The notes: generated by a model from the letters alone, not told the origin. A stretch of 64,000 bases of DNA from Pelagibius sp. Alg239-R121 (GCF_947331435.1 NZ_CAMZOF010000002.1:186001-250000), one strand, 5' to 3'; shown: positions 5,079 through 60,063, counted from the stretch's first letter. Numbers and translations: made by a program.

Positions 5079-6554
5079 CTAAGTTTGGTCGGGCTTGCGC
5101 GCGCCTTGCACGATCCGGTCCATGATCATGGCGCAGAGCGCGATCGCCGCACCGGCCAGCAGTCCAAGACCGTGTTCGACGTGTTGCAAAGCAAAGAGCA
5201 CGTCTTCGCCCAATCCTTTGGCTGCGATCAGGGCGGCAACGACGACCATCGACAGGCTCATCATGATTGTCTGATTGATACCGGTCATGATCGAGGTCAC
5301 GGCCAGCGGCAGTTCGACCTTCCACAGCAGTTGCCGCGGGGTCGCGCCGAAGGCCAGCGCGGCTTCCTTGACGCTTTCGGGCACCTGCGTGATACCCAGC
5401 ACCGTCAAACGGACCATCGGCGGCAACGCGAAGATCACGGTTGCCAGAATGCCGGGCGGCTTGCCGACCCCAAAGAACGCGATGGCGGGGATCAGGTACA
5501 CGAAACTCGGCAGAGTCTGCATGATGTCCAGGACCGGCCGGATGAAGGCGTAGATCCGCGGCGACTTGGCACACCAGATGCCGATGGGCACACCGAGCAC
5601 GACACAGATCAGGGTCGCGGCGCCAACCAGCGACAGGGTCGACATGGACTTTTGCCAAAAGCCGAACATGCCCAGATAAAACAGCGCCAGCGCGGTGAAG
5701 ATCGCGACGTTCTTTCCGGCGGTCCGCCAGGCGATCAGGATCAGCAGGAATGCCATCACCGGCCACGGCGTCCCGACGAAGATCAATTCCAGCAGATTGA
5801 GCACGGCGCGAATACTGATCGTAATGGCATCGAACAGCGAAACGAAGGTAATGGTCAGCCAGTCAATAAAGTCGTTGATGCCGCCGGCAACCGGCTGCTG
5901 AAGGTTCTTTCCGATCGGAACCTCGCCGATGACCCAGCAATTGAAGCGGTCGGCAAATCCGGCCTCGTCGCCTTTGGCCATGGCTCGCCACATGCGCTTG
6001 CACTCACGCAGAGTGGGCGCCACCTGGGTCGCGCGGTAAATCAGCATCGGGCCGATCGCGAGGATCAGGGCAAGACCCAACTGCACCCGGCGCGCGGAAA
6101 TGCCCGCGTTGATCGCGCGATCGATGCGCCAGTTCTGGTATTGGCGGTAATAAAGCAGATCGGCAAAACGTGCAGTCAGCACCCGTCCGCAGACGAAAAC
6201 CGCCACCCCCCACAACAGATTGACGCTACCGGTCCCTTCGGATGCCGCGAACAGCCCGCGGGCCATCAGCATGATTCCGGAAACGTCCAGCAGCAGTGCG
6301 ATCCAGAAGTGGGTCCAGTTGCCGCGCCGTGCGCCCCAAAACGGGCCTGCCAACAGCGCCGAGCGGTTCACATGCGTTGCCGTCAGGCGGTTTTGCTGTA
6401 GCTGAACAAAGGTGCCGCTGTAGTAGTCGGTTTTCTCGGCGGCGAATTCCGTAACGAGCTTCTGTTCCTCGAGGCTCGGGCCACTGTCCTGCGCTTCGGC
6501 ACCGAGATCGGCAGTTGCCGGTGTATCAGTCATCGCGGGTGTATCAGTCATCAC
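5079..6554 (-). CDS. proW: Glycine betaine-type ABC transporter permease
   Basis: A 491-aa inner-membrane protein, much longer than typical ProW. Residues 1-230 form an extra N-terminal region with two or more hydrophobic segments (FWIALLLDVSGIMLMARGLF, GLALILAIGPMLIY) and a short periplasmic-looking stretch. The C-terminal ~250 residues are the standard binding-protein-dependent permease domain with the EAA loop (VPESVKEAALAFGATPRQLLWKVELP). The first residues contain a small tandem repeat (MTDTPA twice). It overlaps the ATPase gene by 4 nt (ATGA), so the two are translationally coupled. Confidence 0.88.
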   Translation of the reverse strand: MMTDTPAMTDTPATADLGAEAQDSGPSLEEQKLVTEFAAEKTDYYSGTFVQLQQNRLTATHVNRSALLAGPFWGARRGNWTHFWIALLLDVSGIMLMARGLFAASEGTGSVNLLWGVAVFVCGRVLTARFADLLYYRQYQNWRIDRAINAGISARRVQLGLALILAIGPMLIYRATQVAPTLRECKRMWRAMAKGDEAGFADRFNCWVIGEVPIGKNLQQPVAGGINDFIDWLTITFVSLFDAITISIRAVLNLLELIFVGTPWPVMAFLLILIAWRTAGKNVAIFTALALFYLGMFGFWQKSMSTLSLVGAATLICVVLGVPIGIWCAKSPRIYAFIRPVLDIMQTLPSFVYLIPAIAFFGVGKPPGILATVIFALPPMVRLTVLGITQVPESVKEAALAFGATPRQLLWKVELPLAVTSIMTGINQTIMMSLSMVVVAALIAAKGLGEDVLFALQHVEHGLGLLAGAAIALCAMIMDRIVQGARKPDQT

Positions 6555-7615
6555 GGCTCTCCCTGTATGCCGCGCAGCAATGCGGTTTTGGTCACCACGC
6601 CAACCGCGTTGCCGTCGTCTTTGATGAGGATCGGGTGCTCGCTGTCGACCGACAGATCGACCAGCGCATTCAGATCGGTTTCCGGATCCGCAACGGGACA
6701 GAGGCTCTCGTCCAGACCGTTACCGCCATTCGCTTTGTAGGCTTCGATCGGCTGCATGACCGTATGGGCGAACACAAGCTTGAGCCGGGAAATGCCGGCA
6801 ACGAAGTCCGCGACATAACCATCGGCGGGCTTGGTCACGATATCTTCCGGCGTGCCGATCTGCACGATGACCCCGTCCTTCATGATCGCGATGCGGCTGC
6901 CCATGCGGATCGCTTCGTCCAGATCATGGGTGATGAAGAGCGTGGTCTTGTGCATGACGTGTGACAACGCCAGGAACTCGTCCTGAAGCTGGCGGCGGAT
7001 CAGCGGGTCCAGCGCCGAAAAGGGTTCATCCATCAGCAGAATGTCGGGATCGGCGGCGAGCGCCCGCGCCAGGCCGACCCGCTGCTGCATGCCACCTGAC
7101 AGCTCCGAGGGATAGCGGTCGCCGTAACCTGTCAGATCGACTTTTGCGATGGTCTCTTCCGCCGCAATGCTGCGCTGATAGGAATCGACACCGCGCAGCT
7201 CCAGGGCAAAGCCGACATTGTCGCGCACCGTGCGGTGCGGCAGCAGTGCCATGTTCTGGAACACCATGCCGATGGTCTCGGCCCGCACCTGGCGCAGCTC
7301 TTCTTCGTTCAGGACATTCACGTCCCGTCCCTTGAGGAAAATCTCGCCGGCGGTAGGCTCGATCAGCCGGTTGATATGCCTGACCAAGGTCGACTTGCCG
7401 GAGCCCGACAGCCCCATGATGCAGAAGATCTCACCCTGCTCGACGGCAAAGGAGGCATCCGCCACCCCGACGACGCAGCCGAACTGCGCCAAGACTTCCG
7501 GTTTACCGAGATTGTCCCTGCGGATGGCCTCCAGTGCCTCCGCCGCACGCGATCCGAAAATCTTCCAGACCGACCGGACCTCAATGACCGGATCCCCTGT
7601 ACTTGCATTATTCAT
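6551..7615 (-). CDS. proV: Glycine betaine-type ABC transporter ATP-binding protein
   Basis: Cytoplasmic ATPase of 354 aa. Walker A is GLSGSGKST (about residues 68-76), the signature is LSGGMQQRVGLARAL, Walker B is ILLMDEPFSALD, and the switch His lies in LFITHDLDEA. A C-terminal extension of about 80 residues resembles a CBS module, as in ProV/OpuAA, which in those proteins senses ionic strength. First gene of the leftward operon. A perfect palindromic operator lies 28 bp upstream of its start, so repression by the divergent LacI-type protein is likely. Confidence 0.9.
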   Translation of the reverse strand: MNNASTGDPVIEVRSVWKIFGSRAAEALEAIRRDNLGKPEVLAQFGCVVGVADASFAVEQGEIFCIMGLSGSGKSTLVRHINRLIEPTAGEIFLKGRDVNVLNEEELRQVRAETIGMVFQNMALLPHRTVRDNVGFALELRGVDSYQRSIAAEETIAKVDLTGYGDRYPSELSGGMQQRVGLARALAADPDILLMDEPFSALDPLIRRQLQDEFLALSHVMHKTTLFITHDLDEAIRMGSRIAIMKDGVIVQIGTPEDIVTKPADGYVADFVAGISRLKLVFAHTVMQPIEAYKANGGNGLDESLCPVADPETDLNALVDLSVDSEHPILIKDDGNAVGVVTKTALLRGIQGEP

Positions 7616-55754: not shown

Positions 55755-57014
55755 TTACACCTGTCGCCTTAAGGCTAAATCGGGCCAGAGAACATTGGTG
55801 GTTTTCCTCGTCGGGCCGGAGGCAGTCAGCACAATCGGCAATCCTGTACGCGTTTCCAGCTCAGCCGCTATTGATTTCGTTACGACTTGGTATTCTTGAC
55901 CGTTCCGAAAGAACGTCGCCGCCTTCGGTATCTGATCGAGACAGGTCACTCCGATACCGGCTCTGACCTGGATGTCAGTTCCGTCTGCCAGAGAGACGTC
56001 TTTCTTGAGTGTCTCTTTCAGCAAGTCCAAATCCAAAGGCGCTTCCCGGATCCCGCCTTGCCAGTCATTGCTGACATTGGTCGGGTCATTGATGTCCGCC
56101 CAGTCGATCTTCCCGGGTCCAGCGGCGCCCACCGCCTCGTTGGGCAAGGGGCCTGCACCATGCCGCGTTGCATAAGCGCGCGTGACGTAGGTCGCCTTGA
56201 TCGTCTGAATGTCAGCCTCCTTTGCGATGGCCAGCATGTTCCGGATCCCGGTGTGGGCCCTGGTGACATGCGGAAAGACGCCGAAGTCCATATCCAACTG
56301 AAGCCCCTGCGCGCCCTCGAAGAGAACGACATCGCGAGAGATAAGCTCTGCATCAGGGAGGATTTCGACTGTTTGAGTAAAGCCGCGGCAGTCGGCCAGG
56401 AAGGCACTGATCAGTTCCGCACGTCCGGTCAGAATTTCCGCGAGAGGGCTTTTCTCCGGATTTATGCCAAGGATCTCCAGGCGCCTCGGAACCCATTCGT
56501 CCCGAATGTTTTCCAGCTTTTCACGCAGATCCTTGTGCCAGAGATCGGCTGCGCACAGGCGCCAGCCCTTTTCCTGGCGCTCAATTGTCTCGCCGATTCC
56601 CAGCCCGCAGGAACCGTGGCGCTCCCCGGCACGCTTGATCTCGAGCGCTTGGTTGATCGCCATATCCCACGGGGTCGTGACCGCTGCCCGAGGGTCGATA
56701 GTGATCCTGTAGGGCCTCACATCCAAGTTCTCCAGATCGCCGATCTCTTTCTGCATGACCATGGGGTGCGCGATGAAAAACTGCGACAGGTGCGTCGCGG
56801 CCGCCACAAAGCTTCCCGAACCGATATGATGGAAAACGTGCCGTCCGCCTTCCGGGCGTTCCACGCCGTGCCCGGCTTGCGCGCCGCCGTTGGAGCGGAC
56901 CACGGTCACCTCGCGCCCTCCATCGACAAGGCGCGAAGCAATAGCGTCTACCGTCAGTCCCTTTCCTTCATCGCCCCAATTGGCGCCAATGACGGCATAG
57001 GCTTCTTTCGACAT
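55755..57014 (-). CDS. Divergent adenylosuccinate synthetase (PurA) homologue
   Basis: A 419-aa PurA-fold protein. GANWGDEGKGLTVD (residues 10-23) keeps the catalytic Asp15 and P-loop glycines but has Leu20 where the family has Lys. VVRSNGGAQAGHGVERPEGGRHVFHHIGSGSF corresponds to the NNAGHTV...HLIPSG stretch, with the active His kept. VLFEGAQGLQLDMDFGVFPHVT and YVTRAYATRHGAGPLPNE are further landmarks. Strong divergence and association with a VWA gene on an island suggest a second, specialised enzyme rather than the housekeeping one. PurZ-like 2-aminoadenine synthesis is possible but unproven. Start at MSKEAYAV (AGGA 9 nt upstream). Confidence 0.85.
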   Translation of the reverse strand: MSKEAYAVIGANWGDEGKGLTVDAIASRLVDGGREVTVVRSNGGAQAGHGVERPEGGRHVFHHIGSGSFVAAATHLSQFFIAHPMVMQKEIGDLENLDVRPYRITIDPRAAVTTPWDMAINQALEIKRAGERHGSCGLGIGETIERQEKGWRLCAADLWHKDLREKLENIRDEWVPRRLEILGINPEKSPLAEILTGRAELISAFLADCRGFTQTVEILPDAELISRDVVLFEGAQGLQLDMDFGVFPHVTRAHTGIRNMLAIAKEADIQTIKATYVTRAYATRHGAGPLPNEAVGAAGPGKIDWADINDPTNVSNDWQGGIREAPLDLDLLKETLKKDVSLADGTDIQVRAGIGVTCLDQIPKAATFFRNGQEYQVVTKSIAAELETRTGLPIVLTASGPTRKTTNVLWPDLALRRQV

Positions 57015-57063
57015 TTGCTTGGTCCTTTTGTCAGGAGGCACGTCGCTGGATAGTGCTCGAATT

Positions 57064-57984
57064 TCAGTCGAGGAACCGGAGTCCAGCGGTTTGACCAGCC
57101 GGTGCCGGCACGCCCTTGAGTGCGTTCGCGACAACCATTGCAGTCGAACCCGACCAGCTGGCCGCCACGTCCGCCGCGCGTGCGCCTTCGTTCACCTGGA
57201 TGAGTGAGACGACCATTTCAGCAAGAGCATCGACGTTATCCAGCTGAATTGTCCGTTCGGGGAGCAGAGCCCTCCAGCTCTTGAGGACATCGTCCAGTCC
57301 ACGGCTTGCGTAGCCTTCGTTAACGAGAACGATGTGGTAAACCTCCCAATTCCGCTGCGCCATTGTCATGATCTCACGGGCGGAGAGATCGCGCTCGACG
57401 GGGATGTTGAGGAACCTTTTGATTTGGTCCTTTGTCGCTCCATCGAGGACCGGCTCGTCGCCGATGGTGAAGAGGTATCCTTTTCGGCGGCGTTTTTCAA
57501 AGGCGTCTGCCGAGACCTTCATGGCCGCGAAAAGGTGCGCGAGCATGTAGGATTCACCCTGGTTGCCGCCGCCGCCGCCTTCCAACCACAGTTCGCGGGC
57601 TTGTTGCGCAACACGTATGTCAGCTTCGAACTGAGTCACCTGGAGCGGCGCCCGATCACAGTAGGCATCTCCTATGGCCATCATCATGACGTGGGGGTCG
57701 GTGACGGGTTTGCGGTCGCAGATCTCGGTCGCGAGGGTGTTGAGCCCGTCCCGCATCAGCTGCTCGGCGACCATTCCCATCGATCCGGTCACGTCGCCGG
57801 CCAGGATGATCGGCGTGGACTGTGGATTATCATCGCTGTCGCGGCTTTCGCGAAGCGAGATTTTGGCAGGGTCGTAATCGTCCTTCATCGCATTCGAAGT
57901 GAAGATTGCTCTGCGGCTTCTGCCGGAGATCGTGGTCGCGCTGTAGTTGGCCCATGCGCTGGCATCCCATCTTCCGTTTCCCAT
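57064..57984 (-). CDS. VWA domain-containing protein
   Basis: A 306-aa cytoplasmic protein with a von Willebrand A fold: MIDAS motif D64-V-T66-G-S68 (ILAGDVTGSMGM) and downstream KGYLFTIGDEPVLDG, with an acidic MIDAS partner. The N-terminal MGNGRWDASAWANYSATT is seen in phage- and island-encoded VWA proteins. ATG at 57984 has GAGGAG 8 nt upstream. It lies 49 bp upstream of the PurA homologue, on the same strand, and follows a kinase-like remnant, a layout like the TerY-phosphatase-kinase triads of stress and conflict systems (inference). Confidence 0.8.
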   Translation of the reverse strand: MGNGRWDASAWANYSATTISGRSRRAIFTSNAMKDDYDPAKISLRESRDSDDNPQSTPIILAGDVTGSMGMVAEQLMRDGLNTLATEICDRKPVTDPHVMMMAIGDAYCDRAPLQVTQFEADIRVAQQARELWLEGGGGGNQGESYMLAHLFAAMKVSADAFEKRRRKGYLFTIGDEPVLDGATKDQIKRFLNIPVERDLSAREIMTMAQRNWEVYHIVLVNEGYASRGLDDVLKSWRALLPERTIQLDNVDALAEMVVSLIQVNEGARAADVAASWSGSTAMVVANALKGVPAPAGQTAGLRFLD

Positions 57985-58014
57985 TTTGATCTCCTCTGGT
58001 TTGGTGTGTGTGAG

Positions 58015-58045
58015 ATTATAATAATTAGCAATATGCAATTTGCAA
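58015..58045 (-). promoter_or_regulatory. Promoter with three 7-bp direct repeats, upstream of the VWA gene
   Basis: Reading leftward, TTGCAAA-TTGCATA-TTGCTAA (58045 to 58025) are three directly adjacent heptads, followed 4 nt later by a perfect -10 box TATAAT (58020-58015). Spaced direct repeats just upstream of a -10 suggest a regulator contacting one DNA turn's phase, or a UP-like element. Confidence 0.5.
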
Positions 58046-58148
58046 GTTACAATTTATAAGATAACCAAAACTCCTGTAAGAACCTGTAATCACTACGAAA
58101 ATGGGAACAGACAAAAGAGCGTATTTCGCCATTAACCGAGATTACGCT

Positions 58149-58749
58149 TTACGCGACGCGATAAACGTCCGCCACTTGGACTGGGTATTGAACGAATCTG
58201 CGTCCGCCCCAACCCTTCTCCAAGGCCGCGCACCACTGAGCGTAATCGTCGACCGCACTCCCTGCAGATGGGCAGTTGATCCAGGTCGAAATTATCGCCG
58301 GCAAGGCGAAGACGGCGCCGTTCGTTCCCGTCGGATCTCCAAGCGCCTCCCGCAGGGTCTTGCGAACCAGTTCTCTGTCGCAGTCGGTGTCAACCGTCTC
58401 GTTCGTGAGGGAGAGTCGCGGCAAAAGTCCAAGAGTTCGTTCAGGCAGAGCAACCGGGTGCTGGCCCACCTTCGTGGCGAAGGCCCATCCCGCAGCCAGA
58501 CGGACTGCGTGCGTTTCGGGGTCAATCAGAATATTCTCCGGCGAGATTGCACCATGAACCAAACCGGCATACTCCAGCCAAGCGCATATGTTCATGAGGC
58601 CGGAACAGAGCCATGCGGCATGGACGTCCGGCATGCTTCCCTCACTTGCAAGCAGGTCTGAGAGAAGGATCTCTCCGGGCCCCTTCCGGACAATGACAAG
58701 AAGGTCTCCATTTTCCAACTCTTCCGACTTCATCACGCGAGGCAGGAAA
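58149..58749 (-). pseudogene. Truncated protein kinase-like protein, inactive-looking
   Basis: The last ~195 residues of a kinase-fold protein. VHGAISPENILIDPETHAVRLA aligns to the HRDLKPENILL catalytic loop, but the catalytic Asp is Ala (HGA) and the DFG is lost (AAGWAFA), so it is a pseudokinase. Its N-terminus is cut at the left end of the IS6 element (58750); the open frame continues for 30 codons into IS sequence (TAIVCKNATKP). Upstream of and co-oriented with the VWA gene. Confidence 0.65.
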
Positions 58750-59572
58750 GGCTTTGTCGCATTTTTGCACACGATTGCGGTAAACCAAGTGGCCACTCCT
58801 TGACTACGCTGACAGCTGGGCAAACTGACGAAACGGACAGACCTCACTCCTGAATTGGCCCTTCCGGATCATGTTAGCAACTTCGATTCCGTCGATGGTT
58901 GCAGCTGCTGTCAGAAATGGCTTGAACCCCAGCATCGGACGGACCTGCCGCTTGATGAATCGGTGACTCTGCTCGACGACGTTGTCGAGATATTTTGATC
59001 GGTAAATTTGGATCGAAATCGGACAGGCGAACCGTGCTAAGATCCGGTTCACCCCGCGGATACCTGCTTGGTTGGCACCGCTTTTGTCGATCGCAATCTT
59101 CTCGGGAAGTACATTTGATTCTAGAGCTTTGGTAAAGAGCCTGATGGCCGCTGCTTCATTCCGACGCTTGGTCAACATGAAATCAAGGGTTCTGCAAAAC
59201 TTATCGACGGCACGATAGAGGTAAACTCACTCGCCGCGGACCCGAACATAAGTCTCATCCATGCGCCAAGACCGGCTTGCGGAGAATTTTCTTCTATGCG
59301 CCTCAGTCGCAATTGGAGACGCGCACTTCACTACCCATCTATTCAGTGTCGCATGATCTACCACAACGCCACGCTCGGCCATTGTCTCCTCAAAATCACA
59401 GTACGGCACCGTGTAACGGACGTAGAAGTAGACCGCAAAGAGGATCACATCTTTCGGAAGTTGGTGGCCTTTGCGCGAGATCATAATCTGAGTCTCACTT
59501 TATGGAAAAAACGCTTGAGACTCACTCATGCAATTTCACACATTCAATGGCTCAAAGCTTGCGACAGACCCC
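58750..59572 (-). mobile_element. IS6 family insertion sequence, complete, 823 bp
   Basis: Ends are GGCTTTGTCGCA (58750-58761) and, inverted, GGGTCTGTCGCA (59561-59572): 10 of 12 match. The 823-bp length equals that of typical IS6/IS26-type elements and a transposase fills it. The flanking octamers GCAGGAAA and CCATAGAC are different, so no target duplication remains. Confidence 0.85.
58804..59484 (-). pseudogene. IS6 family transposase, nonsense-mutated
   Basis: The N-terminal part (residues 1-85) reads ISRKGHQLPKDVILFAVYFY and ends at SRSWRMDETYVRVRGE; then TGA (59227-59229) and, in the same frame, VYLYRAVDKFCRTLDFMLTK ... DKSGANQAG ... DNVVEQSHRFIK ... LDGIEVANMIRKGQ. The family has Trp (TGG) at the TGA position (GEWVYLYR), so one base change kills it. 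DDE residues (MDETY, DKSGAN, VEQSHRF) are otherwise kept. Confidence 0.85.
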
Positions 59573-59900
59573 CATAGACCTCATCGGTAAAGTCCTGAGT
59601 GGTCGGCGGCAACATCTGATAGGAATCAAGCTGATGGCTAAGATCGATCCCCCAGGACATGCCGATTTGCTCCAGATCATAATCCGAATAGCGCCGGTAA
59701 ATTCCAGATCGGATGTCATCGATGATCTGATTAGTCTCTGCGAGACGGGGCAGGATCGGCTTTTCAGCTTCGGTTCGGGAAGCCGTGTCCAAGGACACTT
59801 TCCACTCTCGTTTTCCCACGACACCACAGCAATCCTCAGGGACAACCCGGCAAATATAATAGATACCCAATTTTTGCTCGAACGGCTTGGACATAGTCAT
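59573..59900 (-). pseudogene. Tyrosine recombinase (integrase), N-terminal fragment
   Basis: GIYYICRVVPEDCCGVVGKR and EWKVSLDTASRTEAEKPILP are the DUF6538-type start of phage/island tyrosine recombinases (YYYRRRVPADL...GKREIKRSLGT). The gene starts 86 nt beyond the 3' end of tRNA-Arg and reads away from it, the standard layout for a tRNA-targeted integrase. The IS6 right end at 59572 removes all catalytic parts (no R-H-R-Y). Confidence 0.8.
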
Positions 59901-59986: not shown

Positions 59987-60063
59987 TGGCGCGCCCGTAG
60001 GGATTCGAACCCCAAACCTCCTGATTCGTAGTCAGGTGCTCTATCCAGTTGAGCTACGGGCAC
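59987..60063 (-). tRNA. tRNA-Arg(ACG)
   Basis: 77 nt including CCA. Acceptor GTGCCCG/CGGGCGC, D-arm GCTC-AACTGGATA-GAGC, anticodon stem-loop CCTGA-CTACGAA-TCAGG with anticodon ACG, T-loop TTCGAAT, discriminator G, CCA encoded (59987-59989). The truncated integrase next to its 3' end marks it as an island attachment site. Confidence 0.95.

Follow-up and report, generated by a model that had tools for sequence, protein, structure and literature searches.

Several described systems resemble parts of the locus reported here. The nearest published idea is that of the NrtR-regulated, vWA-containing systems centred on an ADP-ribosylglycohydrolase (ARG), in which a Nudix and winged helix-turn-helix regulator accompanies a vWA protein and a chaperone-like partner, and which are proposed to undo the ADP-ribosylation of host proteins (PMC9503650, section 3.8). 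The TerY-P triad comprises a VWA protein, a kinase and a phosphatase, with the VWA gene adjoining the kinase fold. Phages furthermore carry NAD+ salvage genes (NadV/NadM) and homologues of the adenylosuccinate synthetase PurA; among 481 such homologues, 147 are PurZ, and all of these (147/147) have Ser at position 13 (PMC12884076). Here, we analysed a stretch of 64,000 nucleotides from Pelagibius sp. Alg239-R121 (NZ_CAMZOF010000002.1:186001-250000), referred to as the window. As a first-pass annotation of this DNA had reported, genes for a kinase-like protein (58749-58149), a VWA protein (57984-57064) and a PurA-like protein (57014-55755) stand in tandem on the minus strand, beside a tRNA-Arg gene. 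We conclude that the three genes, long treated one by one in public databases, are almost certainly a chromosomal remnant of a mobile cassette that has a core of VWA protein and PurA-superfamily enzyme and, in many cases, a J-domain/pseudokinase protein at its head. The cassette is real, widespread and undescribed, and its copy in the window is split. No description of the trio was found in the open-access full-text literature (subscription papers lay outside the search), in agreement with the annotation, whose author knew of no such system.

The cassette differs from each of the systems named above. Compared with the ARG-centred systems, it has a predicted PurA-like ligase in place of the ADP-ribosylglycohydrolase as well as a J-domain/pseudokinase protein, and it resides mainly in phages. 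Compared with TerY-P, it contains a J-domain pseudokinase and a PurA-like enzyme, and no recurrent phosphatase gene turned up (PP2C was not scanned directly). A minority of phages have NadV/NadM genes next to the cassette, but these encode separate enzymes, and most NadV loci lack the cassette. The PurA-like enzyme resembles PurZ of the Z-DNA phages as a phage-borne PurA homologue with the same PHROG label, but it has Asp instead of Ser at position 13, retains Asp333, belongs to another clade and has other gene neighbours.

The genes form a real module, as had been supposed, and the presence of either the VWA or the PurA-like gene predicts that of the other. An alignment-based VWA scan of IMG/VR returned 491 relatives, compared with only 2 loci from a single-protein VWA query of genome contigs. 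Among the 80 best of the 491, fetched by the VWA protein alone, the PurA-like gene was present in 77/80 viral loci, and the reverse viral scan with PurA revealed the VWA gene in 77/80 loci. The two scans overlap in many contigs; after pooling and approximate de-duplication by hand, both genes were present on 116 of the 121 viral contigs. By tblastn, 226 phage records contain the PurA-like gene and 206 the VWA gene, with almost identical hosts, among them Mycobacterium (189 PurA-like/188 VWA), Rhizobium (10/10) and Vibrio (6/6), and reading three of the phage records confirmed that the two genes are adjacent. We conclude that their co-occurrence is far beyond chance.

Carriers of the cassette include approximately 190 cluster-C1 mycobacteriophages, phages of Rhizobium and of Vibrio, scattered bacterial genomes, and plasmids of Rhizobium, Agrobacterium, Acetobacter, Methylorubrum, Rhodococcus, Tsukamurella and Variovorax. 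Cellular genomes carried it in 3/385 cases in a class-level sample, in 6/398 in a phylum-level sample, and in 3/248 and 4/229 in two further samples. We infer that this sporadic presence is what mobile DNA would give. The first-pass annotation lacked the phage distribution, as it did the J-domain, the NrtR regulator, the truncation by an insertion sequence (IS) and the NAD-salvage neighbours described below.

The PurA-like protein (419 aa, ATG at 57014; 55755-57014, minus strand) is a predicted GTP-dependent ligase. It matched Pfam Adenylsucc_synt (PF00709) with 154.8 bits (E 3.8e-45; gathering score 27) and PHROG 1211 (E 2.5e-56). Judged by the Pfam score and the catalytic residues, it is a member of the PurA superfamily. 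Against the NCBIfam/TIGR PurA equivalogs, however, it reached 126 and 124.9 bits, far under the cut-offs of 395.55 and 402, and against the NCBIfam PurZ model it scored 37.4 bits, the cut-off being 300. The housekeeping PurA of the same genome is encoded elsewhere (contig G000:C3) and scored 591 bits versus 153 for the window copy. In a quick phylogenetic tree, calculated without a mixture model, 54 PurA-like cassette proteins formed one clade (SH-aLRT 98), with 14 housekeeping PurA (100) and two PurZ sequences (100) apart. Thus, the homologue lies outside the ordinary PurA of the genus. The first-pass annotation had named two outcomes that would make the module a coincidence, namely a position inside the ordinary PurA clade and a lack of VWA/PurA co-occurrence elsewhere, and neither was observed.

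The cassette enzyme shares with PurA the fold, the GDEGKG loop with Asp13 and Lys16, and residues His41, Gln224, Thr239 and Asp333. Asp13, Lys16, His41 and Gln224 were invariant in 91/91 cassette proteins, and Asp333 of the GTP site was kept in 90/91. In contrast, Thr301 was replaced by Gln in 91/91, Asn38 by Gln in 87/91 (kept in 4/91), Thr129 by Cys or Val in 86/91 (kept in 5/91) and Lys331 by Cys or His in 86/91, while Arg131 and Arg143 were lost. Arg303 of PurA contacts both the O2' of IMP and aspartate (PMC8342488). The combination of the aspartate loop TxTGR (Thr301, Arg303) with the IMP-phosphate residues (Asn38, Thr129, Arg143) that marks a PurA equivalog was not found. We take the IMP 5'-phosphate in E. 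coli PurA to be bound by Asn38, Thr129 and Arg143, and aspartate by the 299-303 loop; a search of the literature on the IMP contacts of PurA returned no paper. Because the catalytic residues are kept but the IMP-phosphate and aspartate sites are changed, we infer that the activation chemistry is retained and that both substrates probably differ from those of PurA. That the protein is a ligase acting on a substrate other than IMP has, in our estimate, only slightly less than an even chance. The replacement of Asp13 by Ser (or Gly) that marks PurZ was absent: both PurZ controls had Ser at position 13, versus Asp in 91/91 cassette proteins. The RefSeq/PHROG name '2-aminooxy adenylosuccinate synthetase' is given to Asp13-bearing, non-PurZ proteins (NC_070967.1, L001; NC_021349.1, L003; OR413349.1, L002), and this annotation looks propagated in error.

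The VWA protein (306 aa, ATG at 57984; 57064-57984, minus strand) had no Pfam VWA match, and its sole match was PHROG 2971 of unknown function (E 6e-45). It contains a DVTGSMG metal ion-dependent adhesion site (MIDAS) motif, Asp64 and Ser68 were invariant in the alignments, and the DxS/TxS residues of a MIDAS were present. Its AlphaFold2 model (pLDDT 89.5) matched integrin I-like/MIDAS domains with Z 15.7. On the strength of the model and the motif, the protein is assigned to the MIDAS-bearing VWA fold, which is in line with the first-pass annotation.

The kinase-like protein of the window matched PHROG 3043 'kinase' (E 7e-8). A close relative, a Kiloniellaceae metagenome-assembled genome (MAG; L014), encodes a VWA protein 88% identical to that of the window and has an intact kinase-like gene, whose product of 339 aa contains the HPD motif of a J-domain. 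The window gene (58149-58749, minus strand) encodes only the C-terminal part of approximately 200 residues, which shares 75% identity with residues 129-336 of the intact L014 homologue; the J-domain is lost, as is part of the N-lobe. In the alignment, the HPD motif was conserved as His 36/36, Pro 34/36 and Asp 35/36, and a simple motif search found it in 67/75 full-length proteins. The same type of search detected the catalytic HRD Asp in 0/75 full-length proteins, and GW replaced DFG in 34/36 aligned members. In the AlphaFold2 model of the J-domain/pseudokinase protein (pLDDT 92.8), helices 24-37 and 48-63 flank the HPD motif; the best Foldseek match was the human DNAJB1-PRKACA (J-PKAc) chimera, with kinases at Z of approximately 19. 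According to motifs and model, the intact protein of approximately 340 residues is a J-domain fused to a pseudokinase and, with neither HRD Asp nor DFG, does not have the predicted features of an active protein kinase. The kinase fold and the pseudokinase character claimed earlier thus stand, but the claim does not extend to a whole gene. An intact pseudokinase in the window was rejected, what is left being an IS-cut remnant of the last approximately 200 of approximately 340 residues.

The J-kinase gene was present on 51 viral contigs, and the kinase-like protein accompanies only approximately 40% of viral cassettes. On 21 viral contigs its place upstream of the VWA gene is taken by an unrelated family of approximately 220-300 aa, here termed 'znr', and the two occurred together on 0 contigs. 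Examples of znr are L001:7777-8568, L002:5261-5974, L055:4065-4973 and L178:2758-3432; one member had a weak Top1 zinc-ribbon match, and there was no PHROG match. The upstream genes of L001 and L002 were considered as kinases and rejected, as they belong to znr, which is never found together with the J-kinase.

Bacterial cassettes mostly have a gene for an NrtR-type repressor next to them. Such a gene adjoins 15/21 other bacterial cassettes (L004-L008, L014, L016, L020-L023, L315, L318-L320); in actinobacterial cassettes the NrtR match was weak. The four regulators tested matched the NrtR winged helix PF21906 with 62.6-68.8 bits (cut-off 27), and the combination of Nudix domain and NrtR winged helix was present. 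They resemble the NCBIfam model of the ADP-ribose-responsive NrtR with 161 bits, under its equivalog cut-off of 400. Nudix matches in viral loci were rejected as NrtR, being weak matches to NadM-type genes. The two intergenic gaps of the intact relative L014 each contain TTGCAA heptad repeats, with 5 hits in total versus 0.41 expected (0/200 shuffles). An operator-like repeat of this kind (ACTTGCAAATTGCATATTGC, 58028-58047, minus strand), common to L014 and L326, precedes the VWA gene of the window, and the repeat also lies beside the stranded NrtR gene (L326) described below; its count in the window alone was not above chance.

Individual cassettes deviate from the common arrangement. In one phage group (L038, L040, L041, L063, L082), the VWA gene is followed by genes for head closure and for a tail-sheath stabiliser, which part it from the PurA-like gene. 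In a Rhodobacteraceae MAG, a 779-aa protein with an N-terminal methyltransferase domain is encoded directly downstream of the cassette (L016:8335-10674). On the Rhodovulum plasmid pRSMBA (L008), the VWA open reading frame (ORF; 5743-7035) is annotated as 'TonB-dependent receptor'; NrtR and J-kinase genes are present there, no PurA-like gene was found, and the cassette is probably truncated. The cassette of the Methylorubrum extorquens AM1 megaplasmid (L316, 5258-7191), with a partial VWA ORF and an intact PurA-like ORF beside it, is probably decaying.

The window kinase gene is cut by an IS6/IS240-type element at 58750. Its homology begins at 58749, exactly at a terminal repeat (GGCTTTGTCGCATTTTTGCAC, 58750-58770, plus strand) that adjoins and truncates the gene and that resembles IS6-family ends. 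Beyond it lie an IS6/IS240 transposase fragment (58804-59178, minus strand; PF13610 DDE_Tnp_IS240, 62.3 bits) and, from the ORF listing, an N-terminal transposase fragment (59227-59484, minus strand; weak sub-cut-off PF03050 match, 21.3 bits) that probably belongs to the same decayed IS. The genome of Pelagibius sp. Alg239-R121 retains only residues 134-338 of the J-domain/pseudokinase protein, and no other copy of the J-domain part was detected in it. Its NrtR gene is intact on another contig (G000:C11), and is 86% identical to that of L014. Reading by eye, we found this gene followed by a start 'MKMTA', like the 'MSMTA' of the kinase, and then by IS remnants, so that the operon has most likely been split by IS activity. 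The dN/dS values relative to L014 were 0.12 for the kinase remnant, 0.08 for VWA and 0.22 for PurA, and these values give no strong sign of prolonged decay. Outside the cassette, the tRNA boundary is marked by an integrase N-terminal (DUF6538) remnant (59544-59900, minus strand; PF20172, 35 bits), a domain that is often N-terminal in tyrosine recombinases, and by the tRNA-Arg (ACG) gene itself (59987-60063, minus strand; ARAGORN).

A further clue to function comes from the neighbourhood of the viral cassettes. NadV or NadM lay within 5 kb of the cassette on 16/121 viral contigs versus 0/80 nrdD control loci (p 2e-4); the control loci were fetched with an alignment, as a single-protein query returned only 8. 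The recurrent gene order is NadM-partner-VWA-PurA-NadV, the partner often being znr.

We tentatively propose, at somewhat less than even chances, that the cassette encodes a GTP-dependent PurA-class ligase that acts on an unusual purine, is coupled to Hsp70 and has a link to NAD metabolism. In bacteria, NrtR would repress the operon until an NAD-derived metabolite, for example ADP-ribose, goes up. The J-domain/pseudokinase protein would recruit DnaK (Hsp70) and the MIDAS VWA protein would bind a client peptide or protein, both acting as adaptors that serve the PurA-class enzyme, with no role as a kinase. Because this enzyme has kept the residues with which GTP drives the activation of a 6-oxopurine while its IMP-5'-phosphate and aspartate pockets are altered, its substrate would be a hypoxanthine-type purine that is not IMP in free form, such as one within a dinucleotide, a diphosphate or triphosphate, or a macromolecule, and the added amine may differ from aspartate. 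Phages would use the system alongside NAD salvage, either to counter defences or to take over metabolism. The mechanistic scheme as a whole is doubtful. Equally speculative is the broader idea of a nucleotide-conjugating system of a new kind, in which a GTP-dependent PurA-fold ligase would modify the purine ring of an NAD-/ADP-ribose-derived or macromolecule-bound nucleotide. It would be delivered by the Hsp70-recruiting J-domain pseudokinase and the MIDAS VWA adaptor; in bacteria an NrtR sensor would switch it on, and in phages it would serve alongside NAD salvage.

Several points weigh against this proposal. Only 1/80 NadV loci has the cassette, which makes the NAD link one-sided, and the phages of the nrdD control belong to other lineages; the link is therefore suggestive. 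It consists of neighbourhood only, with the majority of viral cassettes having no NAD gene within 5 kb, and we give a true connection to NAD or ADP-ribose about even chances. Furthermore, 6/21 bacterial cassettes are without NrtR. The Pfam DnaJ scores of 19-23 bits are under the cut-off of 27.8, and more than half of the viral cassettes do without the J-domain protein, which therefore is not essential in all of them. Finally, the argument from the altered pockets leans on our assumed residue roles in E. coli PurA.

Among the alternatives, purine salvage or pool repair fares best, although we regard it as unlikely. Here, the enzyme would re-aminate inosine nucleotides (IMP, dIMP, or ITP/dITP produced by deaminating defences of the RADAR type), with the VWA and J-pseudokinase proteins only regulating or stabilising it. 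The full retention of the residues for 6-oxopurine activation would fit, as would the commonness of nucleotide-metabolism genes in phages and an altered 5'-phosphate pocket that could accommodate a di- or triphosphate. The changes at Asn38, Thr129 and Thr301, however, speak against plain IMP and Asp, the hosts have their own PurA, no recurrent adenylosuccinate-lyase partner was seen among the neighbour ORF clusters, and NrtR and two adaptor proteins would be left unexplained. Quite unlikely is a variant of the NrtR/vWA ARG-centred systems (PMC9503650) in which the PurA-like enzyme replaces the ADP-ribosylglycohydrolase and the J-domain protein is an extra chaperone. The logic of an NrtR-type regulator with a vWA partner is alike and the J-domain continues the chaperone theme, but ADP-ribose removal is not PurA chemistry, the members are mostly in phages and not in hosts, and no recurrent ARG gene cluster was found among 97 loci (the ARG model was not scanned directly).

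There is a slim chance that the PurA-like protein binds GTP as a sensor or scaffold without being a catalyst, which its altered substrate pockets and retained GTP-site Asp333 would allow; the invariance of Asp13, Lys16, His41 and Gln224 across very divergent members suggests catalysis instead. DNA base modification, with a PurZ-like or N6-succinyl purine entering phage DNA, was an output considered in the first-pass annotation and is suggested by the '2-aminooxy adenylosuccinate synthetase' name in PHROG and RefSeq and by the homology of PurZ to PurA. It is now very improbable: Asp13 stands in 91/91 proteins where PurZ has Ser, the PurZ score is 37 bits against a cut-off of 300, no recurrent Z-pathway gene was found in the neighbour ORF clusters, and the cassette enzyme also occurs by itself on plasmids and chromosomes of bacteria. 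The TerY-P-like phospho-signalling module (VWA, kinase, phosphatase) that a VWA gene next to a kinase fold had called to mind can hardly be right, given a pseudokinase with HRD Asp in 0/75 and GW for DFG, a kinase-like protein in just approximately 40% of viral cassettes, and no recurrent phosphatase/PP2C ORF cluster as a fourth gene among 97 loci (the PP2C model was not scanned directly).

Several hundred phages, including approximately 190 well-studied C1 mycobacteriophages, carry the cassette under missing ('hypothetical protein') or misleading names. Because the catalytic core is kept while the pockets are remodelled in every member examined, the sequences of the PurA-like clade would predict a new, directly assayable reaction. 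The NrtR regulator and the NAD-salvage neighbours provide a concrete entry point to the function. The J-domain/pseudokinase fusion together with the VWA protein would, if the proposal is true, be a new route for bringing a host chaperone to a phage enzyme.

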